A stretch of 20,411 bases of DNA, taken from IMG/VR virus record IMGVR_UViG_3300033146_001192, positions 1 to 20,411 of that record; one strand, given 5' to 3'. Below the pieces are notes generated by a model. That model saw nothing but the letters and a program-made list of their open reading frames with translations, made no database searches and was not told where the DNA came from. Every line of letters starts with the position of its first letter. Within the stretch, counting starts at the first letter, position 1. Source of the stretch: a virus. Both the position numbers and the translations under genes were made by a program. Positions 3,768 to 20,411 of this stretch are shown here, one piece after another.

Positions 3768-4046
3768 CTAGTCCTCCTCTACTACTATATTAAAATTATC
3801 AAGAGGAATTAATTTATAGTTATTGTCTGTTGCAAATATAGGATTGACTCTACATGTCCCAAGGTCCTCGACACACCAAAGCTTAACTGATTTAAATCTA
3901 CCACGTCTATTCTTGAAAACATGATGAACTAAAGTTGGTGTCGGCATAGCATTGGTTGAGGTTAGAGACTCAAGATTTTTCAAGTCTGTTTCAGTTACAG
4001 GAAGCACGATTGTACCAAAGTCAATCTTATCTGCAATGGCCTTCGC
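3768..4046 (-). CDS. dnaB: dnaB-type replicative helicase, exon 3 (C-terminal end)
   Basis: This exon encodes 92 residues beginning AKAIADKIDFG, the segment that follows RG in phage DnaB-family helicases, then IVLPVTETD and a C-terminal tail. It ends at TAG (3768-3770), 11 nt before the primase ATG. The frame is open further upstream, to an ATG at 4166, but that part lies in group I intron sequence and is not protein. The junction ACACG|GCGAAG is set by protein homology, by the G ending the intron, and by a short P10 (GCG with CGU). It joins exon 2 (ending AGAGGT) in phase 0 to give RGAKAIADK. The exon supplies the end of the RecA-like ATPase core. Confidence 0.85.
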   Translation of the reverse strand, partial: AKAIADKIDFGTIVLPVTETDLKNLESLTSTNAMPTPTLVHHVFKNRRGRFKSVKLWCVEDLGTCRVNPIFATDNNYKLIPLDNFNIVVEED

Positions 4047-4422
4047 CGTGTTATTCTTATGTTTCCACAAGCACTGACTATATCTTAACAAAACACTTTG
4101 ATGTGTCTTGCTATATCTGTTTCGATTTTCACATACTTCGTTTCCTAAAATATGACTACGTATCAATAGTAGCTCTACTCCCCAGCATTACAACCTAAGG
4201 GATAGTCGATAGCCCGCTTTAATTAGTTATTTACCCTTGTAGAAAGTAGGCTCATTTACCATTTTAATTTTATGAGCCATGTTTAACTAATTAACATGGG
4301 ACGGGATTGTCATGTCACTTGATAGTGATTTAGATTTCCCCGTAAGCATCAGCGTTATTTTTTTTATGTCGCTAACACCCCTGCTGATAAGCAGGTTAAA
4401 ATATATTAAGGCACGTGTTTCT
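4047..4422 (-). ncRNA. Group I intron 2 of the helicase gene (no ORF, about 376 nt)
   Basis: Core elements in order on the minus strand: P-like CUUACGGGG near 4340, Q-like CAAUCCCGU near 4310, R-like AUCGACUA near 4210, and S-like AAGAUAUAGUC near 4080. R and S pair as P7 (GACUA with UAGUC). P1 is exon GAGGU with guide GCCUU, giving the required U.G pair at the 5' splice site. P10 is the weak GCG/CGU. A CUUGUG-GAAA-CAUAAG hairpin precedes the 3' end, which is G. No homing endonuclease is present, so it is a minimal or ORF-lost intron. It fills this gene-free stretch completely. Confidence 0.82.
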
Positions 4423-4476
4423 ACCTCTAAGCAAGTTCTGATTCCCGTCTTGTTTTGTCTCCCAGTCCATGGGATT
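4423..4476 (-). CDS. dnaB: dnaB-type helicase, exon 2 (54-nt mini-exon)
   Basis: Eighteen codons encode NPMDWETKQDGNQNLLRG. The NQNLLRG part is the DnaB-family segment just before AKAIADK, found at the start of exon 3. The 3' boundary (AGAGGT) is well supported by P1 of intron 2. The 5' boundary is less certain. I put it after GUGGG, the right arm of a CCCAU/GUGGG hairpin that would be P9 of intron 1, because an in-frame TAG occurs four codons earlier. About 30 to 35 residues expected between exon 1 and this exon, including the helicase Q motif (H4), are not encoded nearby. Confidence 0.72.
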
Positions 4477-5451
4477 CCCACATTTCTATGGGCACTGACT
4501 ATCTCTTACTTAGTAATATCACTAAGTACATCCGTTTCGGTTCTCAGCAGCTTCATTTCTTATAACTGCGACACGTACTAATTAGTGTCCCTACGAGCCT
4601 ATTAAGCCTCTAGTCGATACATGCTTCAAATCCACATTTTTTTACGCTTCTTATAAATCGGCAAGTGTTTATAAGAGCTTCCTTCTAATATGTGTTTTAC
4701 TGATGATGCTCCAATTATATCTTTAAAGATAGTCTGAATCTCCGGAATGGTTTTAGTTAAGTACATTGATCTCATCAAGAGAGCTTCTTCGTCAGATATT
4801 CTAGACATTCCATTCTTAGAACCTGGTCTAGCAAGAGCTTTTCTTCTAAGAGGATAATCAACGGATTGTATTCTCCATGCCTGCCCAGTGTTTATTAAAC
4901 TAATGGTGGCAACTGAAACATCAAACCTCTTGGCTATAACCTCAAAGTTCATTGAAGTGTCTTTTAAATCATGCACTATTACAGGAATATCAGATTCACA
5001 TAACTTGGATTGAGAATGATTTTCTCTTGAGAGGTTTGGACCTTTTCCACCGTTTGAAGTGTTATATCCATTTGAAACTGTGTCATATTTAATAATCCAA
5101 TATATCTCTCTTTCGTTCCTTAAATCATCGTCTTCAATTAACTCTAAAACCTCTAAGCTAAAATTCTCGATTGAGTATTTTCTAAAAGCCCTGTTCTTCT
5201 TTGATTCGTAGTCAGAAACATTCTTATTTAAGTGAGAGGTTCTATGTTCAGACCATCTTCTCTCAATATCGTTGCTTTGACCTATGTACTTTTTATTGTT
5301 TTCTCTATTGGTTATCATGTAAATTCCTTTTATGATAATCACCTACTATTTTTATTTTGCCTGTTTCTGTGTCTTTGATTCACACGGGATTGCCTTCAAC
5401 TCTACTTGGTAAGGTTCCCCCGTTAGCTAGACTGTTTATCTAACCCCTACT
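4477..5451 (-). ncRNA. Group I intron 1 of the helicase gene, td-like, carrying a GIY-YIG endonuclease
   Basis: P-like GCUAACGGGGGAACC (5413-5427) and Q-like GCAAUCCCGUG (5383-5393) lie before the endonuclease ORF. R-like AUCGACUAGAGG (about 4607-4618) and S-like AAGAGAUAGUC (about 4498-4508) lie after it. P7 pairs GACUA with UAGUC, and P3 may pair AGUCU with AGGCU. The ORF is therefore in the P6 region, where T4 td carries I-TevI. The 5' splice site is placed after GACU (P1 GACU with GGUU) and the 3' site after GUGGG. Both are softer than in the other three introns, and no good P10 joins them, so the 5' and 3' halves may come from two different introns. Confidence 0.72.
4626..5342 (-). CDS. 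GIY-YIG homing endonuclease (in helicase intron 1)
   Basis: A 238-residue protein with GIY at residues 6-8, YIG at 19-21, Arg28/Arg29 and a conserved NEREIYWI...NGYNTSNGGKG segment, all typical of the GIY-YIG nuclease domain in the first 100 residues. The C-terminal half has helix-turn-helix-like stretches (VIAKRFDVSVATISLI; ISDEEALLMRSMYL) and a SKNGM segment like NUMOD3, consistent with DNA-binding modules of I-TevI-type enzymes. It would cut intronless alleles of the helicase gene to drive homing. The start is GTG (reads MIIIKGIYM), without a strong Shine-Dalgarno, and the stop is TGA. It lies wholly between the Q and R elements of its intron. Confidence 0.88.
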   Translation of the reverse strand: MIIIKGIYMITNRENNKKYIGQSNDIERRWSEHRTSHLNKNVSDYESKKNRAFRKYSIENFSLEVLELIEDDDLRNEREIYWIIKYDTVSNGYNTSNGGKGPNLSRENHSQSKLCESDIPVIVHDLKDTSMNFEVIAKRFDVSVATISLINTGQAWRIQSVDYPLRRKALARPGSKNGMSRISDEEALLMRSMYLTKTIPEIQTIFKDIIGASSVKHILEGSSYKHLPIYKKRKKMWI

Positions 5452-7647
5452 AGTCTTATCTTCTCTTAGTTTCACTCCACCGCTCCTTTTAGTTATTTCT
5501 TCTAAAATCTTTAAAGAGGTGTGAATATAATCCATGAAGACATATTTAACTCCGCTATCTATTACATGTTTTTTAATGGTGTTTTCTATATCAGAGAGAG
5601 AAAAATCTGGGAGCTCTTCCAAGTAAAGTGGACTATCAATCATCATTTGACCAGCCTTAAGGACTCGGTCCTCTTCGTCTCCAACATAATTACCATCTAG
5701 TATCTTCTCTTCATTTACACCGGAAAGAAAAGCCAGTATCATAGTCTGAAGCTCTTCAACTTCCTGTTCAGTAGATATGAATAAAGCAGGCTCTTTCGTT
5801 CCATTCTTAACCCACTGCCCTGTATTTAAATCATAAAGCTCATCCATTGCGATGTATGATGAATCCGCAATTGACATTCTTGTATTATGCGTAACTATGC
5901 CCCCTTGCAAAAGAAAGAGTTCAGTTGGATTGGTGGTACTTATACAGGTCATTTCCTTTTGAGCTTCTGTCTTTTCAATCTCAAGAATACTGACATAAGA
6001 GTTTCTTGAAGGTTGTGACCATTTTTCGTTAATCCTTTCAGAGTCGTGAAGAACTTCTAAGTACTCGTTAGTTCTTATGGTTAAGTCATAGTAACCGTCA
6101 AATTTATAGTCCTTTGTTCCATTGGGCTGGATATGACCTTTCTTTGACTCTGCTATCCTACATATGACTCCGAGTGAGTCACACACTTCTTTTATATCGT
6201 TCGCAAAAGTAACTGATGATGTGGTGTATCTGTAACCATTCTTCTCTGAGGTTAAACCGCCTTTCGCATCAATAATTCCTTTTACTAGCTCCCATCTATC
6301 CCTGGGTGAGCTATATTTGTAAATGTCTGGGATGAAACGCTCTGTAGAGTGATTTTTAATTAAATCTAATTCTCTTATGATATTTAAGAACTGAGAGGTT
6401 CTTTCTCTTTTTATCTGTCTTATATTGAAAAACATTCTATCTGGAGTTTCCTTGTAGTCTATTTTAGATAAAGTAGCATTAACTAAAGCTAAATCAGCTA
6501 TTACTTTTTCTAGTAGCTCTTCATCATATATACTTAAATAAGTATGAAAGCCATCTTTTCTAAAGACCGCATCAGAAAGTATGACACCCATCGTATGAGG
6601 TTTAACTGGAACTGCTTTTCTTGAATATCTAAGAGGCCTAATCGATGGAAGTCTTAACTTTCCAGTTAAACCTGTTGTTCCATTTCTAATATTCTCTGTT
6701 TTTAAGATTGTTTTAGTGTCTGCGGTTTTCAGCACGTCTGGCTTACTGATTTTAGAATAAGTCCAAAGATGCTCTTCGCAACACTCAATAGTAATGCTAT
6801 TTGAGAATCTAACCTTACAAACGTCTTTCAGTCCTTGCGGGAAGGTGCCTTTAACTCGATACACTTTACCGTCTTCGCCAAATATTGGATCTCCTATAGC
6901 CAAGTCCTCTATTTTCGTAGGCCCACTCGGCGTCATAACTAAAGTGCCATTTGCAAGTGCTTTTCCAAGACCGGTGGCCGCAGATCTTAGATAAAATTTC
7001 TTTAATCTCGCACCTCTTGTAACTGTGTTAATCAAGTTTCCATAAAGTGGTAGCCCAACCTCCGGAGTGTCTTTCATTCTTTGAATCAGTTCAAAAATAT
7101 TATCTCCAGCTTGAGCCCCCTTGGTCGAAACGGTTTCAAGGTATTTACTTTTGATGTCGTTTATTTTATCGTCTATTGCATCTGCAATATCCATTATATC
7201 TGTTGAATCTAACCAATCTTCTTGAAGCTGTTTCTTTGAAACATTCAAAAGAGATGGATCATATAGCCAAGATACGTCTAAGCCGTGATTGTTATACATT
7301 CTTAATAGAGTCATTTTCTTCATTCTGTTATAGTAGTAGTCGAAGTTAGAAATGTCTGACGACTCTATTATTTCAGAAAGATACTCAGGACCCTTCTCTT
7401 TGTTGAATTTTTCGTATATGCCAGGTCTACTTGATAAGTAGTTGTCAATATCTAGCAAACCAATATTTTTTACCCCTTGTTGCTTTAAGTTGTTTACTGC
7501 TCCGTATATGTATAAGTAGAAACTAGAACCAAAGTCTTCTGCATTAAAGGTGTACTTATCAGTTCTTAGTAAGATTGTACTATGTGTAATTAGTCCTGCT
7601 AGTACCTGTGAGATACTTTTTTGGTCTAGTAATTGATTACTATTCAT
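5452..7647 (-). CDS. dnaB: dnaB-type replicative helicase, exon 1 (N-terminal domain, Walker A interrupted by an intein, Walker B)
   Basis: The exon encodes 732 residues, of which 230-588 are an intein. The mature part has an N-terminal alpha-helical domain, then the RecA-like core: Walker A ATGLGK|T split by the intein, FISTEQEVEELQTMILAF (motif H1a region) and KYVFMDYIH (Walker B, H3). The reading frame leaves protein-like sequence after KLREDKT and hits a stop four codons later, inside intron 1. The product should be the hexameric fork helicase working with the primase downstream. The ATG at 7647 overlaps the end of the zinc-finger gene by 8 nt, so translation is probably coupled. Splicing to exons 2 and 3 leaves the H4 segment missing. 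Confidence 0.88.
5884..6960 (-). mobile_element. Class 3-type intein in the helicase Walker A motif (359 aa, degenerate LAGLIDADG)
   Basis: The intein runs from Ala230 of the precursor (ALANGTLVM) to Asn588 (VTHN), followed by Thr+1. It begins with Ala rather than Cys or Ser. The diagnostic class 3 triplet is present: Trp66 in block B (EEHLW), Cys339 in block F (MTCIS) and Thr357 in block G (VTHN), numbered within the intein. Two LAGLIDADG-like motifs sit at about 122-131 (MGVILSDA) and 225-234 (KGIIDAKG). The second has Lys where the catalytic acid should be, so cutting activity is doubtful. Removal joins GLGK to TRMSIAD and rebuilds the P-loop. Confidence 0.9.
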
Positions 7648-8164
7648 CTAGTTGCATCCTTTCTAGTTCATCAAAGTCTATTGCGGCATTGAACCGAACA
7701 GTACTCTTTGGTGGTTTAATCCTTATAACGACTTCATTTGGCTTAAAGTCTTCTTGCTTTACATCTTTGTTCTTTATGTTTGAATAAAAGATAGTTTCGT
7801 AATGCTTCTTAGCGTCTGCGTAGACGAAAGGAACTATTCCGATTCCACCGTTTGCTTTCTCTTTTGAGCTTTTCTTTACTTCATACCAGTACTTTAAAGT
7901 TCCAAGTATACCTGAATATGAATACTTGTAATTTACTACCATATCCTTAATTTGTTTCTGTACCCTTGCTCCAACGTAATCTGTCTCAAATAATTTACAT
8001 ATATATTCATTTAGTAGCACTGACGCAGTATCTTCTGCTGATTTATTTTTAATTGAATTTAAGTAGCACTCTTTGTGCCAATATCTATTCTTAAGATGCT
8101 CAAACGGAACCTTGTCTCTATCGAAGGTTTCTCCGCATCCTGGACATTTAACTCTGTGAGCCAT
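7640..8164 (-). CDS. Zinc-finger protein upstream of the helicase, possible helicase loader
   Basis: A 174-residue protein whose N-terminus has Cys7-x2-Cys10 and His30-x2-Cys33, a probable zinc-binding site. The middle, about residues 70-120, is rich in Tyr, Lys and Gly (YSYSGILGTLKYWYE, then GGIGIVPFVY). The C-terminus is acidic (ELERMQLDE). No family can be named with certainty. It overlaps the helicase start by 8 nt, and phage helicase loaders or primosome adaptors are often encoded directly next to dnaB-type genes, so a loader role is a position-based guess. Start ATG at 8164 has GAGGTG upstream. A hairpin separates it from the sak4-like gene before it. Confidence 0.75.
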   Translation of the reverse strand: MAHRVKCPGCGETFDRDKVPFEHLKNRYWHKECYLNSIKNKSAEDTASVLLNEYICKLFETDYVGARVQKQIKDMVVNYKYSYSGILGTLKYWYEVKKSSKEKANGGIGIVPFVYADAKKHYETIFYSNIKNKDVKQEDFKPNEVVIRIKPPKSTVRFNAAIDFDELERMQLDE

Positions 8165-8185
8165 ATTTTCACCTCAATATAAACA

Positions 8186-8209
8186 ATGGAGAGCTATTAA
8201 ACTCTCCAT
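8186..8209 (-). terminator. Hairpin between the sak4-like and zinc-finger genes
   Basis: An 8-bp perfect stem (ATGGAGAG / CTCTCCAT) with an 8-nt loop follows the sak4-like stop and is followed on the minus strand by a moderately T-rich TTGTTTATA. It could be a weak terminator or an RNA-processing or stability element. Confidence 0.45.
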
Positions 8210-8231
8210 CATTCTTAGATTCTATTCTATT

Positions 8232-9200
8232 CTATGTTTCAATGCCTTCCATTGCTTCGGCCTCTGCTTTCAACTCGGCTAAAGTAACTTCATATTTGGC
8301 GAGGTCTTCATCAGACACGGGGAAAGCCTCTAGCTCACTAGCAATAATTTCGACAATCATTGCTTGATCAATAGTACAATCTGAAACCTTTTTACCGATT
8401 CCCAACTGTTTGTTAATCACGTGAACGATTCGAGGTCCGTAGTATGGAGTATTGATTAATAGTAGTTTATCAGAAATCTTTTTAAACTTCAACATAACAG
8501 TGTCAAAATCAATTTCAACCGCAGCCATGTGAACATTCTCTCTTTCATCGCTAACGTACTTATTATCAGACTCAAGAGCCTCTTTATCAATCGCACGTCC
8601 AAGAGCACCAACTAAGTTGTCGTAACTAAGAATGATTTTCTCTTCGATATACTTGAATCTAGAACCCGCTTCAAATCTAGGTGTTCCTCTTAAGAACATA
8701 TACACTTGATGACCCTCAGCAGTGTCAACGCCTCTAATATAACCAATAATATCAGTCATTCTTGAAACTATTAACTTAGCTTTGTTTGGAAGAGTTGGAA
8801 TGATTTTATTATACTCAAGACCAGCCTCATCTGTAAAGGTTCTATCTATTTCATGACTTATCATAACGATACCATAGTTCATTTGAACTATTTGTCTTAA
8901 TCTAGTGTCGAACTCTTTAGCCACTTTAGAATAACCTTGACCATAAGGAACCTCACCGATTGTATTTACACCCTCGATACCACAAACGTATTGTTCGCAG
9001 TAGTCATAAAGAATGTCAGCAGTGTCTAAAACGATTGTTTCAAATTTTTCCTGAACTTCAGTTTCTTTTAATTCTCTTAGAACCATTAAGAAATCTGACC
9101 ATCTATTGATAGGTTGAACGAAGATGCCGGGTAGTGCTGAGTACCCTTTCTCTGCGGCTAATAATAGAGAATTTGGAAAGCGTGTTGCTATAGTAGTCTT
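8232..9200 (-). CDS. Sak4-like RecA-fold ATPase (ssDNA annealing/recombination), exon 2
   Basis: This exon encodes 322 residues beginning KTTIATRF, the second half of a Walker A motif whose first half (YGPPKIG) is in exon 1. Walker B is TIVLDTADIL. MISHEIDRTF is the sensor-like region typical of phage Sak4/AAA_24 proteins. The spliced product has 351 residues, longer than minimal Sak4 owing to a C-terminal alpha-helical and acidic extension. Sak4 proteins are RecA-like single-strand annealing recombinases, often encoded beside an SSB, as here. The apparent ATG at 9203 is a chance codon made by the last intron bases (ATG|AAG) and is not a real start. Stop is TAG. Confidence 0.85.
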   Translation of the reverse strand, partial: KTTIATRFPNSLLLAAEKGYSALPGIFVQPINRWSDFLMVLRELKETEVQEKFETIVLDTADILYDYCEQYVCGIEGVNTIGEVPYGQGYSKVAKEFDTRLRQIVQMNYGIVMISHEIDRTFTDEAGLEYNKIIPTLPNKAKLIVSRMTDIIGYIRGVDTAEGHQVYMFLRGTPRFEAGSRFKYIEEKIILSYDNLVGALGRAIDKEALESDNKYVSDERENVHMAAVEIDFDTVMLKFKKISDKLLLINTPYYGPRIVHVINKQLGIGKKVSDCTIDQAMIVEIIASELEAFPVSDEDLAKYEVTLAELKAEAEAMEGIET

Positions 9201-10163
9201 CATATTTAGACTATATCTTAAAATGCATTAAAGAGCTGTTTTTGAAAGAACAAATCCTTTTAGTTTTCTTTTATTATTAACGTACCTGGACACAGAAGCA
9301 ATACCAATCTGAAGGTCTTTTGCACACTCTTTTTGACTTGAGTAGGATTTTATAAAAATACCTTCATCATCATAAAGAAATACTTCTTTCCTGTTGAGGT
9401 TAAACCATTCAGGTATCCTGCTTTTTTGATATGACTTAAACTGGAATGATCCGTAGTGCATCACTTCCTCTTTAACACATCTTAGTATCGTGCTATAGTC
9501 CATCTTGAGCTCTTGAGCGGCCGACTTTGAGTTTTCGAATCTTCTTACGAACTCTCCTTTTAAAGTGTATTGGAAACATTCTCGCATCTCGTTTTTTTGA
9601 AGTCCCGATAGATAACTATGTCGCATATTTTCAAGAGCGGTAGACCACTCCAAATTAGACAATTCGTTATTTAACTTATTCCCATCTTTATGGTTGACTT
9701 GTAGGTCATTCATCTCTGGGTTCGGATCAAAAGCTTTCAACACGAGTCTGTGAACTGAACAGTTCTTGTTGACCCTGGCTCTTAGATGAACCATGTGATA
9801 CCCATTACCAGACACAGATCCTCCTAAAAGGGTTTTTGAACTGTCGTTTCTCACAGCTCCCAAACTTGATACACTATAAAACGTCTCTAATTCGTTAATA
9901 ATAATTTTTTTCCATTGTTCTTTCATTTTTCTCTCCTATACACCTACGGGCGTTTCGATTATAAAATCTACGGTTATAAAACCTAGTCGTTGAACGTGTT
10001 CCCCTTTGGGGAGTTCGCTGCGGATTACTTAATATCTTTGACTTTTTACTATCTCTACCGTGATTAGCAGTAGCCACTAGTGCATTACTACACTACCTTA
10101 GTACCAAAGTGTTTAAAAGCTTTCCCGCAATTAACCCATATAATTTAGGCAAAACTACAATTT
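9201..10163 (-). ncRNA. Group I intron in the sak4-like gene (963 nt), carrying an HNH endonuclease
   Basis: P AAUUGCGGGAAAGC, Q AAUCCGCAGCGAAC and R GUUCAACGACUAGG lie upstream of the endonuclease ORF, and S AAGAUAUAGUCU lies after it, 20 nt from the 3' splice site. P7 pairs GACUA with UAGUC. P1 is exon UAGGU with guide GCCUA, five pairs with U.G at the splice site. P10 is exon 2 AAGACU with AGUUUU next to the guide, six pairs. The intron ends in G. The splice joins PPKIG to KTTIA. The ORF lies between R and S, in the P8 region. Confidence 0.93.
9228..9926 (-). CDS. HNH homing endonuclease with NUMOD modules (in the sak4 intron)
   Basis: A 232-residue protein. The N-terminus (EQWKKIIINELETFYSVSSLG) matches the NUMOD4 module. 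The HNH_3 core is around residues 59-94, with SVHRLV, NHKDGNKLNN and LSNLEW. Two NUMOD1-like DNA-recognition repeats follow, near 110-150 (QYTLKGEFVRRFENSKSAAQ) and 190-225 (VFLYDDEGIFIKSYSSQKEC). This is the I-HmuI/SPO1-like architecture of phage intron endonucleases, which nick or cut the intronless target and favour spread of their intron. AGGAG lies 6 to 7 nt before the ATG. The frame is intact, so the enzyme may be active. Confidence 0.92.
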   Translation of the reverse strand: MKEQWKKIIINELETFYSVSSLGAVRNDSSKTLLGGSVSGNGYHMVHLRARVNKNCSVHRLVLKAFDPNPEMNDLQVNHKDGNKLNNELSNLEWSTALENMRHSYLSGLQKNEMRECFQYTLKGEFVRRFENSKSAAQELKMDYSTILRCVKEEVMHYGSFQFKSYQKSRIPEWFNLNRKEVFLYDDEGIFIKSYSSQKECAKDLQIGIASVSRYVNNKRKLKGFVLSKTAL

Positions 10164-10250
10164 ACCTATCTTAGGTGGTCCGTACAACAGTACGGAATAC
10201 CCTCTAAGGTCTCTGCTTACAATATGTGGTGTTAAATCCATTAATCCCAT
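10164..10250 (-). CDS. Sak4-like RecA-fold ATPase, exon 1
   Basis: This 87-nt exon encodes 29 residues ending VLLYGPPKIG, the first half of Walker A. ATG at 10250 is preceded by a perfect AGGAGG 8 nt upstream, just after the stop of the ssDNA-binding protein gene, so the genes are co-transcribed. Without splicing, translation runs three codons into the intron and ends (GKL, then TAG). Joining to exon 2 in phase 0 gives GPPKIGKTT, a complete P-loop. The exon is easy to miss because of its size. Its identity rests on the AGGAGG, the P-loop and the ribozyme pairings. Confidence 0.92.
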
Positions 10251-10265
10251 TATTTAGACCTCCTA

Positions 10266-11204
10266 TTAAAAGTTGAATGTGGTTGCTGCAGGTGTTGCTC
10301 CAGGTGTTGTTAAAATACTAGGAGCTGCGGCAGGTGCTTCTTGAGCCTTGTTAGCTTCTCTTTGAATTGTATCAGCTTTAATCGTTTCTAATTTAACGTT
10401 TCTTGCAGCCAAAGCCTTTGAAACCTCATCAACTGTCAACACTGAATCTTCACCAAACTCGTAAGGAATCTTACTAACGCCAGTTACAATGTACTTTTTA
10501 CGTGTTTGAGTATAATCAACAACTTTAGCTTCGCCGAACGCAGACTCTTCAGTTACAGTGGTAGTTTCAACTTGAGTTTTCATGTTACCCCAAACTTTAG
10601 TGAAAGTATTAGCTGGAAGAGCTGCGAAGTATTTAATACCATTTGCATTTTCAATTAAGAATTTAACAGGCATAGCTTCTTTCTTATAGTTGAAAATAAG
10701 TCCATTAAGGAAAAGGCTTCCAGTTGGCATTTGAACTCCATCAACGTCTTTTTTCAACTCTTCTGTTGTAGAAGTTATTAACATATCAACCTCAAACGTT
10801 GAAGAAGGGTTGGGAGATGCAACTAAGTGGTTAAAACCACCAAAGCTTCTAAGTTTGAAAGCAGCTTCGTTGTTTCTAATTGAGTAGAAATCGTTAAGAT
10901 CAAGTGCAGAGTCTACCTTGATACTTGCCGCGAACTCTCTACCATCTTTAACAACTGTTGGAGAGCTAAGAACATTAAGAATAAGTGCGAAATTCGCATT
11001 CTTAGTTCTAACTTGTGTTTGCTTGTTAGTTGTATACTCCATTACTAAGAAGTCCCACTCAGTAATGTTATCTTCTGTAACTTCAATTGCTATTGTGCCT
11101 CTTGCATATTGATTAGTTGGATCTTTTTTAGATGGTGCTACCTTTGATTCAACAATCTCGTAAAGAGTTCCTTCGATGTGAGTTTTGTTTATCATTTTTT
11201 TCAT
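10266..11204 (-). CDS. Probable phage single-stranded DNA-binding protein (OB-fold-like)
   Basis: A 312-residue protein. The N-terminus (INKTHIEGTLYEI...YARGTIAIEV) looks like the first strands of an OB fold. The middle is beta-rich, and the C-terminus is a flexible Ala/Pro/Thr tail (APAAAPSILTTPGATP) ending in TTFNF. A disordered tail with a terminal aromatic is reminiscent of SSB tips, although the acidic residues of DDDIPF are absent. It lies directly before the Sak4-like ATPase and after two DNA-binding proteins, a usual place for phage SSB. ATG at 11204 has AAGGAG 9 nt upstream; Met4 is an alternative start. Function is inferred from fold impression and position, not a diagnostic motif. 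Confidence 0.6.
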   Translation of the reverse strand: MKKMINKTHIEGTLYEIVESKVAPSKKDPTNQYARGTIAIEVTEDNITEWDFLVMEYTTNKQTQVRTKNANFALILNVLSSPTVVKDGREFAASIKVDSALDLNDFYSIRNNEAAFKLRSFGGFNHLVASPNPSSTFEVDMLITSTTEELKKDVDGVQMPTGSLFLNGLIFNYKKEAMPVKFLIENANGIKYFAALPANTFTKVWGNMKTQVETTTVTEESAFGEAKVVDYTQTRKKYIVTGVSKIPYEFGEDSVLTVDEVSKALAARNVKLETIKADTIQREANKAQEAPAAAPSILTTPGATPAATTFNF

Positions 11205-11234
11205 TCTTTGTTTCTCCTTGTCTTTTGTATTATT

Positions 11235-11654
11235 TTATTTGTCTTGAACAGTAGTTTTTTCAACTGTATCAACCATGGTTCCCGTTAGTTCTGTAAGAGA
11301 GTATCTAATAGGGCTCTCTCCATCTTTTGTGACGTACCCATCAGTAACTAACTTTCTGATTGTTCCACTTACTGAACGCCCAGATATGAACAATCCTTCT
11401 GCGATATCAACCGCCTTAAAATCATTCTCATATGTATCTTTATTCTCTACCATAAAATCGAACACTTTTCTACCGTTGTCAGTAAATTTCCCAGAACCTT
11501 TTTTAGTAGCACTCGTTATACTTACTATTTTTTTATCAAAGTAATCTAAAGCGTCTTCAAAATCTATCTCTTTGTTACTCTCCTTTAACTCATCGATACT
11601 ACATTCTTTTACTAGTAAATTAACAAATTGAATAAAATTCTTTTTGTTTAACAT
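11235..11654 (-). CDS. Small winged-helix DNA-binding protein B
   Basis: A 139-residue protein. Residues about 60-120 resemble a winged helix: a helix (NGRKVFDFMVEN), a helix-turn-helix with FISGRSVSGTIRKLVTDGY, and a wing (TKDGESPIRYSL). The first 55 residues are acidic and of unknown fold. It resembles the 87-residue protein upstream in the stretch N..K..DF through SV.GT...V..G, suggesting duplication and divergence. It sits directly before the probable SSB gene, downstream of a hairpin that may reduce its transcription relative to its paralogue. A role in transcription control, or as an abundant DNA-binding or host-takeover protein, is possible. No specific family can be named. Confidence 0.72.
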   Translation of the reverse strand: MLNKKNFIQFVNLLVKECSIDELKESNKEIDFEDALDYFDKKIVSITSATKKGSGKFTDNGRKVFDFMVENKDTYENDFKAVDIAEGLFISGRSVSGTIRKLVTDGYVTKDGESPIRYSLTELTGTMVDTVEKTTVQDK

Positions 11655-11738: not shown

Positions 11739-11751
11739 AACTTCAATTTGA

Positions 11752-12382: not shown

Positions 12383-13482
12383 CCAAAAATTGCTTCAAAA
12401 GTACAAGATTTCGCAGTTTTATCTTTCCTAAACGTTGTATAGGTCGGATGCCTTAAAGAATCTTTCGTGACCTCCATGCAACTACAACTAACGACTCGTC
12501 CAAGATAGTTCTGTGGTGAATCAGTGATCTTTCTTCTTAATTCGTCTGTCAATCCCGATGAAACTGTACCTATTAACTTCAGTTTTCCATCTTTGTCATA
12601 AGCGCCTAGTTTAATAGAGGTCTTAACTCCCTGATAAAACGGCTTTGTTACTGGAACGTACCTGCCCATCTCTTCCGCAAAATATGCACCCTTACATAAA
12701 GCTTTAGTTTCAGAGTCAAACCACAACTCCCAGTTCTCTATATTATCTCCTGCGTATACCATAGTGGCGTTTTCAAATCCAACGCATATAGCATCAACGT
12801 CATCTTGTTTTTTAACCTTGATGCTCGACCAGGCTGGTCTTTTTCCATCTATATAAGGTTGGGTTTTTAGTTTTAAAATTATACCTTCTTCTCCGTCTGC
12901 CAAGGCCTTTGCCGCAAAGTTGTAAAGATCGTCTTCAACAGATTCGGCCAACTCAAGAAACTCATTCAGTATCTTGTACTTAGCAACAGTTTCCTCTAGT
13001 ATGAGGGATCTTTCTTCTGCGCCTTTGCCTCTTAAGTCCTCGCCATCTAATTTTATAATGTCAAACATATAGAAGCTAATATTACCACCTTCAGCTTGTC
13101 TTGATAAAGCTTTCGTAGTCAAGCAACCCATAACGCTTCTAACCGCATTGCTATCTTTACCTGGGAAGTAAATCTCCCCAAGTATTACAGTGTCATTCGG
13201 AAGCATCTTCATAGCTTCTTCGATATGAGGAACCTTTTCAATTGACTCTGTAGGAAGCCCTGTTTTTGTACTAGTACCTCGGCTAAACAGAAAAGATTTC
13301 CCTTGAGTTCCTTTGTTATACTCATACCAATTTCCATCTTTCTTTAATTGTCCGTAGTACTTGCCAGAAGAGCACATCTCTTCTAGCATATGCTTTTTAT
13401 GCTTGGGTAGTGTCCAAAACTCCATAGCCTCATGTATTGACGCTCCGCTGTATAATTCATCTATTTTCTCTTGTGAGTACAT
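12379..13482 (-). CDS. ATP-dependent DNA ligase
   Basis: A 367-residue protein with the nucleotidyltransferase motifs in order: motif I KKDG with Lys47 as the adenylated lysine, motif III FDIIKLDG, motif IV EEGIILK near 211-217, and motif V WSSIKVKK near 230-237. A C-terminal OB-fold region follows, ending in MEVTKDSLRHPTY. It seals nicks using ATP, for example after RNase H and polymerase finish lagging-strand fragments, or in recombination. Its size is that of compact phage ligases, without the zinc finger or BRCT domains of the bacterial NAD enzyme. The ATG at 13482 follows the gyrA stop by 3 nt, with GAGGGG as ribosome binding site inside the end of gyrA. The stop is TGA, overlapping promoter P1. 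Confidence 0.92.
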   Translation of the reverse strand: MYSQEKIDELYSGASIHEAMEFWTLPKHKKHMLEEMCSSGKYYGQLKKDGNWYEYNKGTQGKSFLFSRGTSTKTGLPTESIEKVPHIEEAMKMLPNDTVILGEIYFPGKDSNAVRSVMGCLTTKALSRQAEGGNISFYMFDIIKLDGEDLRGKGAEERSLILEETVAKYKILNEFLELAESVEDDLYNFAAKALADGEEGIILKLKTQPYIDGKRPAWSSIKVKKQDDVDAICVGFENATMVYAGDNIENWELWFDSETKALCKGAYFAEEMGRYVPVTKPFYQGVKTSIKLGAYDKDGKLKLIGTVSSGLTDELRRKITDSPQNYLGRVVSCSCMEVTKDSLRHPTYTTFRKDKTAKSCTFEAIFG

Positions 13483-13485
13483 ATT

Positions 13486-16400
13486 TTACTTCCCCTCTAT
13501 ATTTATAATGTTATCTATTGAGTTAGTTTTAATGAGTGAGTTTCCACCAGCCGCTCTTCCAACTAGAGGAATCTCTTTATTCATAATTAGTTTCGCTTTT
13601 CTATCAAAATATACTAGGATAGAAGGATTTTGTGAGGACGATATATATGAAAGTTCTTCATTCTCTTTTGAACACTTATGCCCAACAACACCGATTCCAC
13701 CTCTACCTTGAACAGGGTAGTCTTTTATAGCTGTCTTTTTCATGTTGCCCAAATTAGAGATAGTTACAACCGTTTCATTTAAGTTATTAACGCTAGAAAT
13801 ACAAGTAGCTTTGTTTGAATCTTTTAGTTTAATTCCAATTACTCCAGTTGCTACTCTTCCTATGCAAGTAACTTTATCTGAGCTAAAGTGAATTGTCATA
13901 CCGTTAGAAGTACCAATAATTAAATTGCCTTCCGTAATAGTAGTTACTCCAACAACCTTGTCATTGTCTGTGAGTTTTATCCCTATGGTACCATTTCTTT
14001 TTATTGAAGTATAATTAGTTAACAAGCTTTTTTTAACGATACCTTTTTTAGTAAGCATTATAAGATACATATTCGGATCTTTAGGGTCTATAACACTTAT
14101 TATTTTAGTGCCTTCCGCAGATAGTAACATTCCATTTGTAATGTCAACAGCATGGAACCTATAAACCTTACCATCTTCTGCAATAGCTGAAACGTAGTCT
14201 TTGTTAGAAATATAGTTACTATACACAAAGGCTCTAGACTCTAGCTTCGTAAATGGCTTCTGTGAAACTCTAACTTTAAAAGCTCCATCAACTGCAATGT
14301 AGTTGAATATTTCAGCAGCTCGCTCTTTTTCAGTTCTAGGTACTATAATATTATCTATTACAGTTCTTCTTGCGTCTCCAAACTTAGACTTAATTTCATT
14401 GAGTTTTAAGATAATTTTGCTTTCTAAGTAGTCACTATCTGAAAGCGTTCTTTCTAAGTCGGCTCTTTCGGCTTCTTTATCTCTCTTTTCGTTCTCTAAG
14501 TCAAGAGTTTCTAGTTTTGTTAATCTAGTTAATTTAATATCCAAAATAGCTTTCGCCTGATCTTCATTTAGACCAAACTCTTTAACTAAAGACTCTTTTG
14601 CTTCTTTTGGACTGTTACTACCTCTAACTATTTTAATTACTTTGTCGATACTATTAATTGCTATGATTAATCCTTCAAGAATATTAATTCTCTTTGCGAT
14701 TCTTTTGAGTATGTAGTTGCTCTTTCTAGCTAGTATTTCCTTTTGAAAATTAAAGTACTCTTCAACCAAATTCTTAAGCGAAAGAGTTTTTGGCTCTCCT
14801 TTTACTAGACAAGTGAAGTTCAAACTAACAGTTGACTCCAAAGCTGTTTTAGCAAAAAGAAGTCTAAGAACGTCTTCAACTTCAGCGTTCTGATCAACTT
14901 CGACTATCAGTCTAATGTCCTTGCCACTCTCGTCATAAACATCTGAAACACCAACTATATCCTTGTTCTTACACAACTCAACAATTTTCATCGTTAGAGC
15001 ATCTTTTTTAACCGCAAAAGGAATCTCCGTAAACACAATTAGTTTTCTCTTTTTATTTCTTGGTTTGTCTTCAATGTGATAGATTCCTCTAACTCTGACT
15101 CTGCCACGACCTGTTTGATAACCTGAAAGTAACTCGTCTCTATTAATAACCAAGCCACCTGTTGCGAAGTCAGGCCCTTTTAAAGTTTTAAGCATTTCCG
15201 CAACAGTAATATCTTTATTCTTTGAGTATTCAACTATTGTATCAATAGTATCTGTTAAATTATGTTGAGGAAATGATGTTGCCATACCCACTGCGATACC
15301 AGTGCTTCCATTAACAAGTAAGTTAGGAAACAGAGCTGGTAGTACAACTGGCTCTAATTCATCATCAGAGAAGTTAAGTTTAAAATCTACAACGTCTTTG
15401 TCCATGTCTTGCAACATTTCCATTGAGAGTTTGCTTAGCTTCGCTTCTGTGTTGTGATTAATAAAACCATTCGCAACGAAAGAATGACAATCAGAATCAA
15501 CTTTTATAGAGTACACCACTTCTTCGTCTGGCAAGACCTCAAGAGAAACGACCTCCACATCTAAGTAGTTGTTTAGTAGGTTTAAAATCACTCTCTCTTC
15601 TTCTGCGGTAGCAATACCTTTGATCTTTGAGCAGTTTTTTAAGTTGGCGAAAGAGGTTTTACGAGCATACGAAGAGGGGTACTTCTTTCTAATAAAATTA
15701 GATATCTTTGGTATGTTGTAATAAGAGTTATTGGCAATCTTTTTTTTCTTTTCTTTGTTTAAGACGCTGGCTTTTAAAGACGCATTTTTTCTATCGCTTA
15801 GGAATCCAATCTGATCCATGAACTTGGCAACTCCATATGAAGAGATTGATAACTTATACTCAAGATTTGATTTCGAAACAGCGCTAAATATTCCAAAGTT
15901 TTGTATTAACAGTATTTGAAGTTGATTAACTAGCTTTTCGCTGTACGATGAATATTGAATCCCTATACCACCAACGTACCCGTCGCCTTCAAATAGGTAT
16001 TTAATAAAGTTTTTTTGATACTCTTTAGTTCCCTTCAAGACCTGCTTTGGAACTACTTTATCTCTAGCCTTGTCTTTGTAATCGTATTTTTCAATAAAAG
16101 ACTTAAAATATTCTTTATCTGCAATACAGTACTCATAGACACTCTCTCTTTTTACAATATTTGCAAGAGAGGAAGAGTCTCTTCTAAAAAGGTCTTGAAC
16201 CGGCTCAACCATATCTATGTCTGTATTGTTAATACCAATCCTGTTTTGAGTTGTAATGTACCCCTCTGAAACTAAGCAGCCAAGAGCCCTAGCTTCAAGA
16301 ATGTCGTTATGTTGACCAAAGACAGAGTTAGTCTCATTGGTTGGCACTAAGATTCGATCTCCTGTCTTAAAGTCAGATATTATCTTCCACTCAAACTCTA

Positions 16401-16998
16401 AATCTTTGTTTAAAACTAGTAGAGGATGATTGTAACTCCCCCTTATTGACATACCATTTTTCGCACTTAACTTATAGATAGTATGATAGCCGCTATTAAA
16501 CAGTTTTTTAGATGAGTTGTTTCCTTCAATACTTTTAATGCTAATCTTGTCAATAACGTTGTCTGAATTTAGTTCAGTGCTTGCCAACTCTTTTATTGGT
16601 AAAGTACCTTGGTCCGTTGCGATTAAGGCGTCTCCTGTTACGCAGTATCGCATAGCCGCAGGTGGATCTCCGTCAATAGTTCCCATGTTACCATGTCCAT
16701 CAACTAAAGGGTATCTCAAGGAAAACGGTTGAGCCATCCTAACCATTGCATCGTAGATAGAAGTGTCACCATGCGCATGATATTTACCCATTGTGTCACC
16801 AACGATACGAGCTGATTTCTTATGAGGTTTACTTGGTATAAGACCAAGTTTATGCTGTGCGAATAAAATTCTTCTATGAACTGGTTTATTACCATCTCTA
16901 ACGTCTGGCAGCGATCGATCAGTGATAACCGACATTGAATAATTTATAAACGAATCTTCTACTTCCTTAATTATCTCACTATTGAATACTTGCTCCAT
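13486..16998 (-). CDS. gyrA: Type IIA topoisomerase subunit A (GyrA/ParC-like) precursor with intein
   Basis: A 1170-residue precursor; removing intein residues 119-516 leaves 772 residues, in the usual GyrA/ParC range. The N-terminus has [17 protein letters not shown] and KYHAHGD, then AAMRY with catalytic Tyr118, which forms the covalent bond to cleaved DNA. A coiled-coil segment ([20 protein letters not shown]) and a C-terminal beta-pinwheel follow. The motif VQGRGGIG near residue 1096 resembles a GyrA box, favouring gyrase-like over ParC-like activity, but this is not certain. It would pair with the gyrB-type subunit two genes upstream. ATG is immediately after the RNase H stop, with its GGAGG inside the RNase H gene, indicating translational coupling. 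Confidence 0.93.
15451..16644 (-). mobile_element. Class 1 intein with LAGLIDADG endonuclease at the GyrA active-site tyrosine (398 aa)
   Basis: The intein starts with Cys (CVTGDALIA) right after catalytic Tyr118 and ends GFINHN before Thr+1 of TEAKLS. Block B is SYNHPLL, and the LAGLIDADG motifs are [11 protein letters not shown] and [12 protein letters not shown], both with acidic residues kept. Ligation restores AAMRYTEAKLS. The insertion point and flanking blocks (NSDN, LFNSG, NHPLL, GFINHN) resemble the mycobacterial GyrA inteins, such as M. xenopi, which use the same site. All splicing residues (Cys1, block B His, penultimate His, Asn398, Thr+1) are present, so it should splice. Confidence 0.96.
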
Positions 16999-17505
16999 CT
17001 ATAAACCTCCTTTTCCATTTATTTTTTCTAAATAATTTTTCTTTTGAATCTCTCTTTGTTTGACAGCCACCCTGTCAGCGACTTCATTGAAGTAGTTACC
17101 AGCGTGACCTTTTACTTTGATAATCTTTATGTTGTTTTCAAATAACATAAGAGCATGAAGTTTTTTAATCGTCTCTAAGTTCTCAGGTGGTCTTTTATTT
17201 GTTTTCTTTATCCAATTATTGGCTTCCCATCCGTCCATCCAAACATTGATTGTATTTACAACGTAAGATGAATCAGAGTATATTTTAATCTCTTTTGGTT
17301 CTTCTAGCTTATTATTATAGTCTTTTGCCAATTCAATGGCTCTTAAGACAGCAAGCATTTCCATTTCGTTGTTGGTTGTGTTTGTCTTACCGCATCCTTC
17401 TTGGTGTAGCAGTAGTCCATCTACCACTACAATTATTGCATAACCACCAAAACTCTCTACTTTTCCGTTGCCAGAGCAGGCTCCATCTGTGTATAATTCT
17501 ATCAC
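16999..17505 (-). CDS. rnhA: Ribonuclease HI
   Basis: A 168-residue protein with the RNase HI active site: YTDGACSGN (Asp7), NNEMEM (Glu49), YSDSSYVV (Asp78) and KGHAGNYFNEVADRVA with the last Asp and its His. The WMDGWEANNWIK segment matches the substrate-handle region of bacterial RNase HI. It degrades RNA in RNA-DNA hybrids, here most likely Okazaki primers or R-loops. Length is near that of E. coli RNase HI (155), with a short Lys-rich tail. The start is GTG at 17505 with AGAGGA upstream, 15 nt after the topoisomerase B stop. It lies between the two topoisomerase genes and abuts gyrA. Confidence 0.95.
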   Translation of the reverse strand: MIELYTDGACSGNGKVESFGGYAIIVVVDGLLLHQEGCGKTNTTNNEMEMLAVLRAIELAKDYNNKLEEPKEIKIYSDSSYVVNTINVWMDGWEANNWIKKTNKRPPENLETIKKLHALMLFENNIKIIKVKGHAGNYFNEVADRVAVKQREIQKKNYLEKINGKGGL

Positions 17506-17520
17506 TTCATCACTTCCTCT

Positions 17521-17925
17521 CTAAACTGTAACTTTTGCCTTCAATGCGTTTTGCTCTATAAAAGCTTTTCTATGCTGAACACTTTTGCTCCCCATTAAAT
17601 GAACGAACATTTCTGCGGTAGCCTCTTCATCGTCCATTAGTATCCTTTTGATACGTCTCTTGTCAACGTCCATAGTCGTTTCTTTTAGTTGCTCTGGATC
17701 TAACTCCCCAAGACCTTTCATGTATCCAACTTCTAATTTACTAGTTGGGTATTTAGCTTTAAAATCAGATAGTTCTTTGTCATCTAGTAAGTAATATGAT
17801 TTCTTGTTTTTAACAACTCGATAAAGTGGAGACATAGCAACATAAACGTGACCAAGTGATATTAGCTCTTTCATATATTTGAATAAGAACGTAAGGATTA
17901 AATATTTGATATGAGCTCCGTCAAC
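17521..17925 (-). CDS. gyrB: Type IIA topoisomerase subunit B (GyrB/ParE-like), exon 2
   Basis: This exon encodes 134 residues starting VDGAHIKYLILTFLF, the continuation of the TOPRIM metal-binding motif TDADVDG begun in exon 1. It goes on through YMKELISLGHVYVAMSPLY and MKGLGELDPEQL and ends RKAFIEQNALKAKVTV, the normal C-terminus of GyrB/ParE proteins. The open frame only shows an ATG at 17874, but the preceding VDGAHI codons are clearly coding and place the exon start at 17925. Stop is TAG, 15 nt before RNase H. Confidence 0.93.
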   Translation of the reverse strand, partial: VDGAHIKYLILTFLFKYMKELISLGHVYVAMSPLYRVVKNKKSYYLLDDKELSDFKAKYPTSKLEVGYMKGLGELDPEQLKETTMDVDKRRIKRILMDDEEATAEMFVHLMGSKSVQHRKAFIEQNALKAKVTV

Positions 17926-19081
17926 CTTACATACCCTAGCTTTCGCTATACTTATTATAAACTATTTTATATTTTTCGAACTTCCTGTCCAAGAAAACTG
18001 TTGCATCTTTGTAAATTTTATCCAATTGATTCGCAGCCGCTAATGTTCCACCTATCTTGAAACTGTATATGCTTTTATCAGATAAAACGTTAGCTTTAGA
18101 AGTTTCAAAGAATTCTTTTATTTTAAGCAAGAATTCTTCTCTACCTGAAAAACCAAAAACAAAGCTTTTTTTAGAAACAGAAATGTACCCGTCGCCATCA
18201 AAATACCCTCTTATAAAATGTCTAACTAGGCTCTTCTCTATGACTGGGAAGTCTAGCTTAAAGGTTTTTTGTTCAACAACGCCATGTCTCTTTAGATCAT
18301 TGACAGTTGTCTGGCTCGTCATTAGTATTCTACTGAAGTAACCGTCTTTATTGTATCCACTTCCTTTGTACTCAAGGATTGGATTCGTTGATTTAATATC
18401 GCTCTTGAATTTAGCTAAATGGTCACTATCTTTTGATGACAAAGTAATCCCAAACTTTTGCGCTCCATGAGGTCTTTTAGATTCAACGAACCCATCTGCG
18501 TAGAAAAAACCAAGCCAATACGCCTTTTTTTCACTATCAATGTTTTTAAAATAATCAAAGTCATGTGAATACATTCGGCTCGTTTCGCTTGTGTTTCTAA
18601 TTGGAACGCCATTCTCAACCAAAATTCTAGATAACGTTTTCCTCGAGTGGTTCAACTCTTTTGAGATTACTCGTATAGAATTTCCATTTTTATATAACGA
18701 TATTAGTTCGGACAGTTCTTTTTCTTGTAGTACTAATTTTTTAGGCATTATTGTTCTCCTTTTCGTTGGGTTATTGTTTCCGTCAACGTAAATGAAAAAC
18801 GAATAAAATAGTTTAAAGGGAATAGACCATATTATCACCTAATTTCTTAGGGCTGTGTATTTCGGACCAGTTTTCATTGGTCCTACTCTCATGCCTGAGA
18901 TGGTCGTTGAACGTTACTCTTTTAAAAGAGTCTTCGCTGCTGATTGCCCAATCTCTATAATTTTCAAACATTCACGCTTGTCGTTTCCGACTACGTTGTA
19001 GTTTATAGAGCTCTAAGGGGTTTCCAGCAATTAACACAGTGCTTCAATAGAGATCACTCTCTAAGGGGACGTTGTAAGTTC
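17926..19081 (-). ncRNA. Group I intron in gyrB TOPRIM domain (1156 nt), carrying a LAGLIDADG endonuclease
   Basis: P AAUUGCUGGAAACC, Q AAUCAGCAGCGAAG, R GUUCAACGACCA (about 18900-18914) and S-like ACUGGUCCGAAAU (about 18860-18872) are present; P7 pairs GACCA with UGGUC. P1 pairs exon GGAU with GUCC, with U.G at the splice site. P10 pairs exon 2 GUUG with the CAAC directly before that guide. The intron ends in G. Splicing joins MTDAD to VDGAHI. The endonuclease ORF lies after S, in the P9 region, and stops 10 nt before the 3' splice site. The 333-nt stretch 18749-19081 is ribozyme core. Confidence 0.94.
17936..18748 (-). CDS. LAGLIDADG homing endonuclease with N-terminal helix-turn-helix (in the gyrB intron)
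   Basis: I choose ATG at 18748 (MPKKLVLQE), which has AAGGAG 7 to 8 nt upstream. The frame is open further, to 18838, but that part overlaps the intron core and lacks a ribosome binding site. The 270-residue protein has a helix-turn-helix-like N-terminus (SIRVISKELNHSRKTLSRIL) and two LAGLIDADG motifs, AYWLGFFYADG near 76-86 and IRGYFDGDGYI near 179-189, both with acidic residues, so a monomeric active enzyme is likely. Its target would be the intronless TOPRIM sequence of related topoisomerase genes. Stop is TAG. Confidence 0.92.
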   Translation of the reverse strand: MPKKLVLQEKELSELISLYKNGNSIRVISKELNHSRKTLSRILVENGVPIRNTSETSRMYSHDFDYFKNIDSEKKAYWLGFFYADGFVESKRPHGAQKFGITLSSKDSDHLAKFKSDIKSTNPILEYKGSGYNKDGYFSRILMTSQTTVNDLKRHGVVEQKTFKLDFPVIEKSLVRHFIRGYFDGDGYISVSKKSFVFGFSGREEFLLKIKEFFETSKANVLSDKSIYSFKIGGTLAAANQLDKIYKDATVFLDRKFEKYKIVYNKYSES

Positions 19082-20411
19082 ATCCGCATCGGTCATAATT
19101 ATAATCTTTTCATATCTTAGTTTGCTAGCATCAAATTCCTCGCCAATCCCGCAACCTAGTGCAGTAACTATATCTTTTATCTCTTGATTATTCATCATTT
19201 TAACAAAGTCTGTGTCTTGTACGTTGAGAACCTTACCTTTTAGAGGAAGGATCGCTTGTGTTTTTCTTTCTCTGCCCTGTTTAGCAGATCCGCCCGCACT
19301 AATTCCTTCAACGAAGAATATCTCGGTGTCCTTGGCAGTTTTTTGAGTACAGTCCGCAAGTTTCCCGGGCAATGTTGAAGAAAATCCGTTGGACACTGCT
19401 TTCGTTCTAACAGTCTCTCTTGCTTTTTTAGCAGCGGCTTTTGCTTTCTTACTCATAATCGCCTTTAAAACAATTGTCTTTAACTCATTTGGGTTAGCTT
19501 CAAACCAGAGTCTTACCTCTCTACCGAATGATCTTTCAACCAATGGACGACCCTCACTTGAGTTTAAAATGTCTTTTGTTTGACCGTTGAAAACAGGGTC
19601 TGGCATTTTAATCGAAATAACCAACACGAGACCTTCTTTTAAGTCTTCTCCTGTTAGGTTTGGGTCCTTCTCTTTTAAAAGATTTGAAGCTCTTGCCATA
19701 TCGTTCACAGTTCTAGTCATTGCTGACCTATAACCTGTAAGATGAGTCCCTGCCGTGTTAGGTATCCCATTTGTATATAATTTAATTTTTTCACTAAATC
19801 CGTTTGAGAACACGAGTGACAGGTCTACCGCAGAGTTTCCGTCTACATGATTCATACTAAAAATACTTGTAGCTTGATTTTCTAGCTTACACAAGTCATT
19901 TACATAATCAACCAAACCATTCTCACTTTTTAAAATCACAGGAGCGTCTTTTTTATAAGCTACCTTAAAAGTTAATCCTTCACATAAAAAAGAGAACTCT
20001 TTTACGAGGCTAATGAGTCTACCCTTGTTAAGTTCGATACCCTCTTGAAAAATAGTCGCATCAGGTTTAAACTCTATAAATGTTCCAGTTCTACCAGCTT
20101 TATTAATCACATTAAATGTTTTTCTAATTCCTTTTTCAAATGTCATCGTAGCTTCTTTACCATCTCTTAGCGATACCACCTTGAGACTATCTGACAATGC
20201 ATTCGCAACTTTAGTGCCAACTCCGTTTAGTCCACCTGAACTATTGTAACCAGTACTACCATCTGAGTTAAACTTAGCACCTGTATGAATCTTTGTGAAT
20301 AAATTTTCCAGTGTTTCTGTGCCATCTTTCGCAGGTCCCCAAGGTATCCCTCTACCATGGTCAGATACGGAAATAACGTTTTTATCTGATATACTAATTA
20401 TAATCTCATCA
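19082..20411 (-). CDS. gyrB: Type IIA topoisomerase subunit B (GyrB/ParE-like), exon 1 (5' end outside window)
   Basis: The frame is open from the right edge of the window to 19082, about 443 residues, so the true start is beyond 20411. The visible part begins inside the GHKL ATPase domain (SDHGRGIPWG, then GGLNGVGTKVANAL). It continues through the transducer domain and reaches TOPRIM: FFVEGISAGGSAKQGR with the metal-binding Glu, LPLKGKVLNV, and IIMTDAD. The intron cuts after this Asp, inside the TDAD-VDG motif. Unspliced translation would end seven codons later (ELTTSP). With the GyrA-like subunit it would form a complete type IIA enzyme for relieving supercoils ahead of phage forks. Confidence 0.94.

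Follow-up and report, generated by a model that had tools for sequence, protein, structure and literature searches.

According to the partial texts of the reports cited here, phage group I introns with homing endonucleases are inserted in genes for conserved phage proteins and carry open reading frames (ORFs) of the GIY-YIG, HNH or LAGLIDADG families (PMC3984707, PMC11878797), one major capsid protein (MCP) gene of zeta and delta crAss-like phages is split into five pieces (PMC7886860), and the mycobacterial DnaB P-loop contains DnaBi1, a redox-regulated class 3 intein whose Cys48 forms a redox disulfide with the catalytic Cys (PMC6195587). The DNA analyzed here (hereafter the window) is one virus record of 20,411 nucleotides (nt), IMG/VR record IMGVR_UViG_3300033146_001192, in which group I introns and inteins interrupt the gyrB, gyrA, sak4 and dnaB genes. 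Its introns resembled the phage introns in the conserved genes that they occupy and in the families of their endonucleases, and differed from them in that the dnaB introns belong to a subclass that the Rfam model RF00028 barely scores (PMC3984707, PMC11878797). Compared with zeta and delta crAss-like phages for element density only, the window has SPbeta-like and Enterococcus EF1/VRE9-like relatives, and the elements found in it sit in replication genes (PMC7886860).

The window most probably represents a phage replication cluster invaded by six homing elements, a reading held with high confidence: three group I introns (gyrB, sak4 and the last intron of dnaB) and two inteins (gyrA and dnaB) appear intact, while the sixth element, a dnaB intron with a GIY-YIG ORF, is 5'-truncated, with dnaB coding sequence lost beside it. 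The phage would be related to SPbeta-like and Enterococcus EF1-like phages, and each element would have entered a conserved motif. These motifs we take to be Toprim in gyrB, the RY/TE site in gyrA, Walker A in sak4 and dnaB, and the H3-H4 region of dnaB for the two remaining dnaB sites. A preliminary description of this DNA was right in reading the insertions as selfish splicing elements acting at the RNA and protein levels, and its figure of more than 5.5 kb agrees with the summed length of about 5.76 kb, to which the truncated intron contributes 990 nt. Five of the six elements that it proposed stand as apparently intact; the sixth has no 5' splice site. The four genes that it called adjacent are separated by six ORFs (RNase H, DNA ligase, two small ORFs with weak helix-turn-helix matches, a phrog_2367 ORF and a phrog_4680 ORF).

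Intron cores were searched with RF00028 (gathering score, 50 bits) and with two models of our own, R1 for the 3' half, built from eight relatives with no window sequence and giving rough E-values, and R2 for the 5' half of the dnaB intron subclass. The features of the four interrupted genes were as follows.

19082..20411, minus strand: gyrB exon 1, cut by the window end (phrog_543, 2.1e-91).
17926..19081, minus strand: gyrB group I intron, 1156 nt (RF00028, 49.2 bits; R1, 29.7 bits, E 2.4e-5 at 18749-18911).
17936..18748, minus strand: LAGLIDADG homing endonuclease ORF of the gyrB intron (LAGLIDADG_3, 6.2e-10; phrog_4645 endonuclease, 2.8e-56; both scored on a longer ORF).
17521..17925, minus strand: gyrB exon 2 (Pfam DNA_gyraseB_C, 5.8e-20, on 17521-17874).
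15451..16644, minus strand: gyrA intein, 398 amino acids (aa), with a LAGLIDADG domain (Intein_splicing, 2.6e-13; LAGLIDADG_3, 1.5e-11).
9201..10163, minus strand: sak4 group I intron, 963 nt (RF00028, 48.4 bits).
9228..9926, minus strand: homing endonuclease ORF of the sak4 intron, HNH with NUMOD4/NUMOD1 (HNH_3, 4e-10; NUMOD1, 1.3e-8; NUMOD4, 2.3e-7).
5458..7647, minus strand: first coding stretch of dnaB, comprising N-extein, intein and C-extein to KLRED (Pfam DnaB_C; phrog_19).
5884..6960, minus strand: dnaB intein, 359 aa (best PDB match 6bs8, Msm DnaBi1, 3.5e-6).
5449..5458, minus strand: deletion junction, where codons end after KLRED (GAT ending at 5458), with 9 nt separating them from the 3' strand of P2.
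4468..5457, minus strand: 5'-truncated group I intron in dnaB (R1, 75.7 bits at 4470-4621; R2, 21.6 bits, E 0.0011, at 5381-5471, P2 skipped).
4626..5318, minus strand: GIY-YIG homing endonuclease ORF, listed from GTG 5342, between P4/P5 and P7 of the truncated intron (Pfam GIY-YIG, 1.5e-12).
4423..4467, minus strand: dnaB exon of 15 codons, DWETKQDGNQNLLRG, between the truncated and the last introns.
4047..4422, minus strand: last dnaB group I intron, near motif H4, 376 nt, no ORF (R1, 84.1 bits; R2, 48.2 bits; RF00028, 29.7 bits).
3768..4046, minus strand: last exon of dnaB.

Removal of each of the three intact-looking introns restored a protein motif in frame (insertion points are marked by a slash). 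The gyrB intron interrupts MTDAD/VDG, with a U.G-anchored guide GUCC facing exon GGAU, and joining 19082 to 17925 gave IIIMTDADVDGAHIKYL, in which MTDADVDGAHI is continuous. For sak4 (GPPKIG/KTT, DNA context GGT/AAG, guide GCCUA facing exon UAGGU), joining 10164 to 9200 gave LYGPPKIGKTTIATRFP and restored GPPKIGKTT; for the last dnaB intron (LRG/AKA, guide GCCUU facing exon GAGGU), joining 4423 to 4046 gave GNQNLLRGAKAIADKIDFG and LLRGAKAIAD. All three share an exon 1 ending in a U paired to a guide G and an intron ending in G. The 5' domain of the last dnaB intron was folded into three hairpins fitting P1, P2 and P2.1 (z -3.05, 2 of 200 shuffles as good).

Relatives mostly had these sites empty, by a stricter count that was used in place of a first, laxer one. 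Among 59 IMG/VR loci with a related DnaB (at most 68% over the query segment), LRG/AKA was empty in 56 and not spanned in 3. For sak4, 53 loci were compared, of which 44 had the site empty, 6 did not span it and 3 contained a stop. The gyrB site was empty in four of the five loci having the gene, the remaining locus not spanning it or containing a stop; all four showed an identical segment and are hence hardly independent. A scan of viral_contigs found no relative of gyrB, and a literature search on gyrB, group I introns and homing endonucleases of phages yielded no paper reporting such an intron in a phage gyrB gene. Near copies of the dnaB mid exon were absent from a degenerate-DNA scan, which may omit the records closest to the window. 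Homing endonucleases of three families (LAGLIDADG, HNH/NUMOD and GIY-YIG) lie inside the introns, and we infer homing of the elements as well as splicing of the five that are not truncated. As read from the sequence, the gyrB intron ORF likely starts at ATG 18748 behind AAAGGAG, the listed ORF starting at GTG 18838.

Covariance models detected cores at all four intron positions, through RF00028 or R1, in line with the four group I introns proposed earlier. R1 scored the last dnaB intron highest (E 3.5e-18), ahead of the 3' half of the GIY-YIG intron and of the gyrB intron, and beyond those three gave no match in the window better than E 0.44. The sak4 core rests on RF00028, since R1 does not find it; in a search of the window's own record with RF00028, only the sak4 intron was listed. 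Over the whole window and at E up to 1, RF00028 had no match in dnaB, and when confined to 3950-5560 it scored the last dnaB intron (E 3.1e-5) and the 3' end of the GIY-YIG intron (16.0 bits, E 0.4).

Several observations weigh against the intron assignments. The two whole-window Rfam matches, in gyrB and sak4, both fall slightly below the gathering score. Guide pairings, of 4-5 base pairs, are short and singly non-significant (shuffle p 0.22 for gyrB, 0.09 for sak4 and 0.13 for the last dnaB intron), and a candidate pairing at the deletion junction scores equally (p 0.11). Guide pairing compared with shuffles cannot tell accepted sites from chance, and the case therefore does not rest on it. 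The gyrB, sak4 and last dnaB group I introns should self-splice, leaving the mRNA through the standard two steps begun by guanosine.

The dnaB introns belong to a subclass barely scored by RF00028, or missed by it in relatives. Further introns of this subclass were obtained from relatives of DnaB and of the GIY-YIG ORF, and eleven 3' halves were aligned (two from the window, several closely related). RNAalifold predicted 21 pairs across the eleven introns, 15 of them with at least one pair-keeping double change, and five P7 pairs were invariant; the helix names P7, P7.1, P7.2 and P9 are our own assignment on that prediction. Rfam gave no match on loci L012, L035, L041, L049 and L024 with an E cutoff of 0.1, and none within L035 4480-6480 with a cutoff of 1. 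R1 scored L012 (31.0 bits) and L024 (28.9 bits), as well as L035, which sits in its training set, and had no match in L023 and L141 among seven loci searched. Because R1 scores L012 and L024 where Rfam is blank, a missing Rfam match is weak evidence of absence; because the whole-window Rfam scan missed both dnaB introns, automatic annotation will miscall these genes.

Pfam and PDB matches agreed on the two inteins that had been proposed in gyrA and dnaB. The gyrA intein lies at RY/TE, starts with C1 and ends in FINHN/T, and its best PDB match was the Mxe GyrA intein (1am2, 2.6e-14). Cys1, the HN end, Thr+1 and an intein splicing domain place it in class 1, and block B reads SYNH against TxxH in the alignment to Mxe GyrA, with the His kept and Ser replacing Thr. 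The GyrA host and the Cys1 and HN ends are shared with the Mxe intein (PDB 1am2, 4oz6), as is, presumably, an insertion at the active-site Tyr-Thr; the gyrA intein of the window differs in bearing a LAGLIDADG endonuclease domain within its 398 aa. RY/TE was empty in 7 of the 16 loci with gyrA, and the other 9 do not span it. Excision would be post-translational, by the class 1 route.

The dnaB intein interrupts GLGK/T (Walker A), begins with Ala1 and ends in THN/Thr+1. It has the class 3 set of residues, namely no nucleophile at position 1 (Ala1) together with HLW, MTC and VTHN, aligns with DnaBi1 (6bs8), and shows a weak LAGLIDADG_3 match (0.0016). It would be excised after translation by the class 3 route, with attack by the block-F Cys and Thr+1 as acceptor. 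Relative to DnaBi1 as presented in the partial text of its description, the motif, Ala1, the Trp/Cys/Thr triplet, the THN end and a Cys aligned with Cys48 are common to both, while the window intein is larger (359 aa) and has Thr+1 in place of Ser+1 and Cys in place of Asp in block B (PMC6195587; PDB 6bs8). In the alignment to 6bs8, both Cys48 and Cys118 of DnaBi1 have counterparts, and a redox link through the Cys48-like residue is proposed as a hypothesis only. In L049 this site holds a shorter homologue with the same class 3 residues, in which Trp occupies the position of Cys48; a redox link therefore does not have to extend to the whole family. For the speculative earlier suggestion that expression timing could depend on splicing, the nearest precedent is DnaBi1, and the second mycobacterial DnaB intein is in motif H4, a region where the window has an intron (PMC6195587, from its partial text). 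The Walker A site of dnaB was empty in 54 of the 59 loci; L049 has the intein, L035-L037 have another insertion, and L046 does not span the site. In the family phrog_19299, named 'terminase large subunit', the first half matches the dnaB intein (6960-5884, 9.3e-27) and the second half matches Sak4 (9203-8232, 3.5e-17); by these matches it may really be a Sak4-like ATPase with a related intein.

The GIY-YIG element of dnaB is, in this sequence, a truncated remnant with a real core. It retains P3-P4-P5, P7, P7.1, P7.2 and the P9 side (helix names again our own), and has no 5' splice site, no P1 with guide and no 5' strand of P2; R2 aligned P2 in the last dnaB intron and skipped it here. The exon after the gap starts with DWETKQDG (4467). 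Relatives read KLRED-NILFMLSxRLKDLCNQYGIFIMSATQLNG-D(W/Y), or close variants, unbroken, and KLRED/N was continuous in 57 of the 59 loci, the other two not spanning it. Compared with them, 29 dnaB codons are absent, from N to ATQLNG, including the conserved ATQLN stretch. The homologous intron of L035, whose ORF is 40% identical to the window GIY-YIG ORF, lies at QLNG/NW and has both guide and P2; judged from it, the missing length is estimated at about 120 nt (87 nt of exon and about 30 nt of intron). The missing segment was sought with six queries in the six frames of the window, which yielded only the known flanks and weak matches elsewhere (the best stray match, in the recJ region, had E 0.076; the two core-only queries reached at best E 0.88 and 1.9). 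Eight replacement 5' splice sites near 5458 were scored and none was singled out.

The truncated intron falls in one subclass with the last dnaB intron and would have QLNG/DW as its proper site. About 120 nt would have gone, by genome deletion or assembly loss: the exon before the intron is without its last 29 codons, and the intron without its 5' splice site, its guide and half of P2. With this loss, the sequence would allow neither normal splicing of the intron nor a full-length DnaB. The earlier claim that a working replisome requires the removal of all six elements is therefore unsupported for this sequence, where dnaB is without the 29 codons and the GIY-YIG intron without a recognisable 5' splice site. 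The inference of a missing segment rests on one metagenome contig.

In the gene downstream, the primase frame (3756-2632, minus strand) has homology to relatives from its first codons, with ATG at 3756; codon 10 (3729-3727) is TGA, and the listed ORF restarts at 3645. Codon 10 encodes Lys or Arg in 23 of the 25 loci whose match starts by residue 8 (some of them near-duplicates), the exceptions being L031 (TTA) and L022 (ATT). Together, the dnaB gap and the primase TGA suggest that the genome is defective or that this stretch of the contig contains faults. A decaying prophage or defective phage, with dnaB and primase as pseudogenes and the dnaB splicing elements as relics, is possible and is put forward tentatively. 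The two lesions, 1.7 kb apart, favor it, while gyrA, sak4 exon 2, recJ, ligase, RNase H, the part of gyrB that is present and three homing endonuclease ORFs are all open, and no host flank was identified.

A fault of assembly or sequencing is regarded as rather unlikely; in this case dnaB and the GIY-YIG intron would be intact in the real phage, and the contig would have lost about 120 nt. The origin of the sequence from a single metagenome contig is compatible with such a fault, and the nonsense codon in the next gene could indicate low-quality sequence. However, exact repeats that touch the 120 nt surrounding the junction never exceed 11 nt, and neither do exact stretches common to the two dnaB introns, so that collapse at a repeat is not obvious. 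Were it true, six functional elements would be right in biology, though not in this sequence. It appears improbable that a phage with three homing elements in dnaB, the class 3 intein in Walker A and two introns in the H3-H4 region, persists after one of the introns was stripped of its 5' splice site and of coding sequence, by obtaining DnaB activity from a second dnaB, a host helicase or joining in trans; if it did, the splicing load would have ended in the loss of the host gene's own function.

Highly improbable is a truncated intron that re-formed P1 (AGAU/...GUCU) and splices KLRED to DWETK, producing a DnaB 29 residues shorter. The join would be in frame (GAT/GAC), and its U.G-anchored pairing of 4 base pairs, with the shuffle p of 0.11 given above, is no worse than that of the accepted sites. 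However, adjacent candidates score similarly (p 0.14, 0.29 and 0.31), so the pairing test is not selective, shuffled versions of the 5' region fold just as well (z +0.31; 122 of 200 equalled it), P2 is gone, and the product would be without the ATQLN stretch kept by relatives. Trans-splicing of the missing exon and intron 5' half from elsewhere in the genome is extremely improbable, as it has no positive support beyond the window being a fragment outside which the piece could lie, the six-frame search found no such segment in the window, and the upstream exon passes directly into P2, unlike a split intron.

For a replication cluster invaded by six homing elements, the comparison with relatives indicated a high density. 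Across 62 related loci (59 viral and 3 from metagenome-assembled genomes, MAGs; many partial, several near-duplicates, with a gyrB match in only 5 and gyrA in 16), insertions longer than 150 nt in gyrB, gyrA, sak4 or dnaB were absent from 43, while 16 had one, 1 had two and 2 had three. Six elements in one 20-kb fragment was the maximum among the compared loci. The kinds of insertion are known; their crowding in replication genes, with three elements in dnaB, is notable and unusual. RNA introns and protein inteins converge on the same replication-protein motifs: Walker A is occupied by an intron in sak4 of the window, by an intein in its dnaB and, by eye, by an intron in dnaB of L035. Should the gap be real, it would exemplify how a deletion can break an intron and remove host coding sequence at the same time, and would be relevant to the widespread view that such elements cost their hosts almost nothing.

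On the minus strand, the genes follow the order gyrB (cut by the window end), RNase H, gyrA, DNA ligase, the two small ORFs with weak helix-turn-helix matches, the phrog_2367 ORF, sak4, the phrog_4680 ORF, dnaB, primase, a recJ-like gene and an AAA/PIF1-type helicase (cut by the other end). No structural genes (the crAss core MCP, portal and terminase) were recognised in the fragment. The nearest named relatives of Sak4 (exon 2) were Enterococcus phages VRE9/H1/EF1 (44%), and those of DnaB were Bacillus SPbeta-like phages and Enterococcus phages (35%). The three matching MAG contigs derive from a single Lachnospiraceae MAG (two contigs) and a Clostridium sp. MAG (one contig). The host would accordingly be a member of the Bacillota.

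Other arrangements of these genes were observed in the relatives. A further dnaB insertion site, near SIAD/KID, was found in L012 (10585-11760) and L142; the LAGLIDADG ORF of the L012 insertion lies 5' of the core and shares 33% identity with that of the window's gyrB intron. L016 and L056 lie on one 402-kb contig (IMGVR_UViG_3300032167_000002) with two replication regions about 70-82% identical over about 17 kb, one dnaB with an intron and the other without; either the module was duplicated or the contig combines two phages.

In-frame TAG codons occurred inside dnaB of nine loci (L004, L041, L045, L055-L060), where the query has Gln, and inside sak4 of L009-L011, L033, L041 and L045, at other residues. 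This distribution suggests recoding of TAG, perhaps to Gln, in part of this phage group. The GIY-YIG ORFs of L041, L045 and L048 were also interrupted by TAG stops. In L038 and L044, an in-frame TGA was found at a dnaB Trp position (position 10511), possibly reflecting TGA-to-Trp recoding in these two loci.

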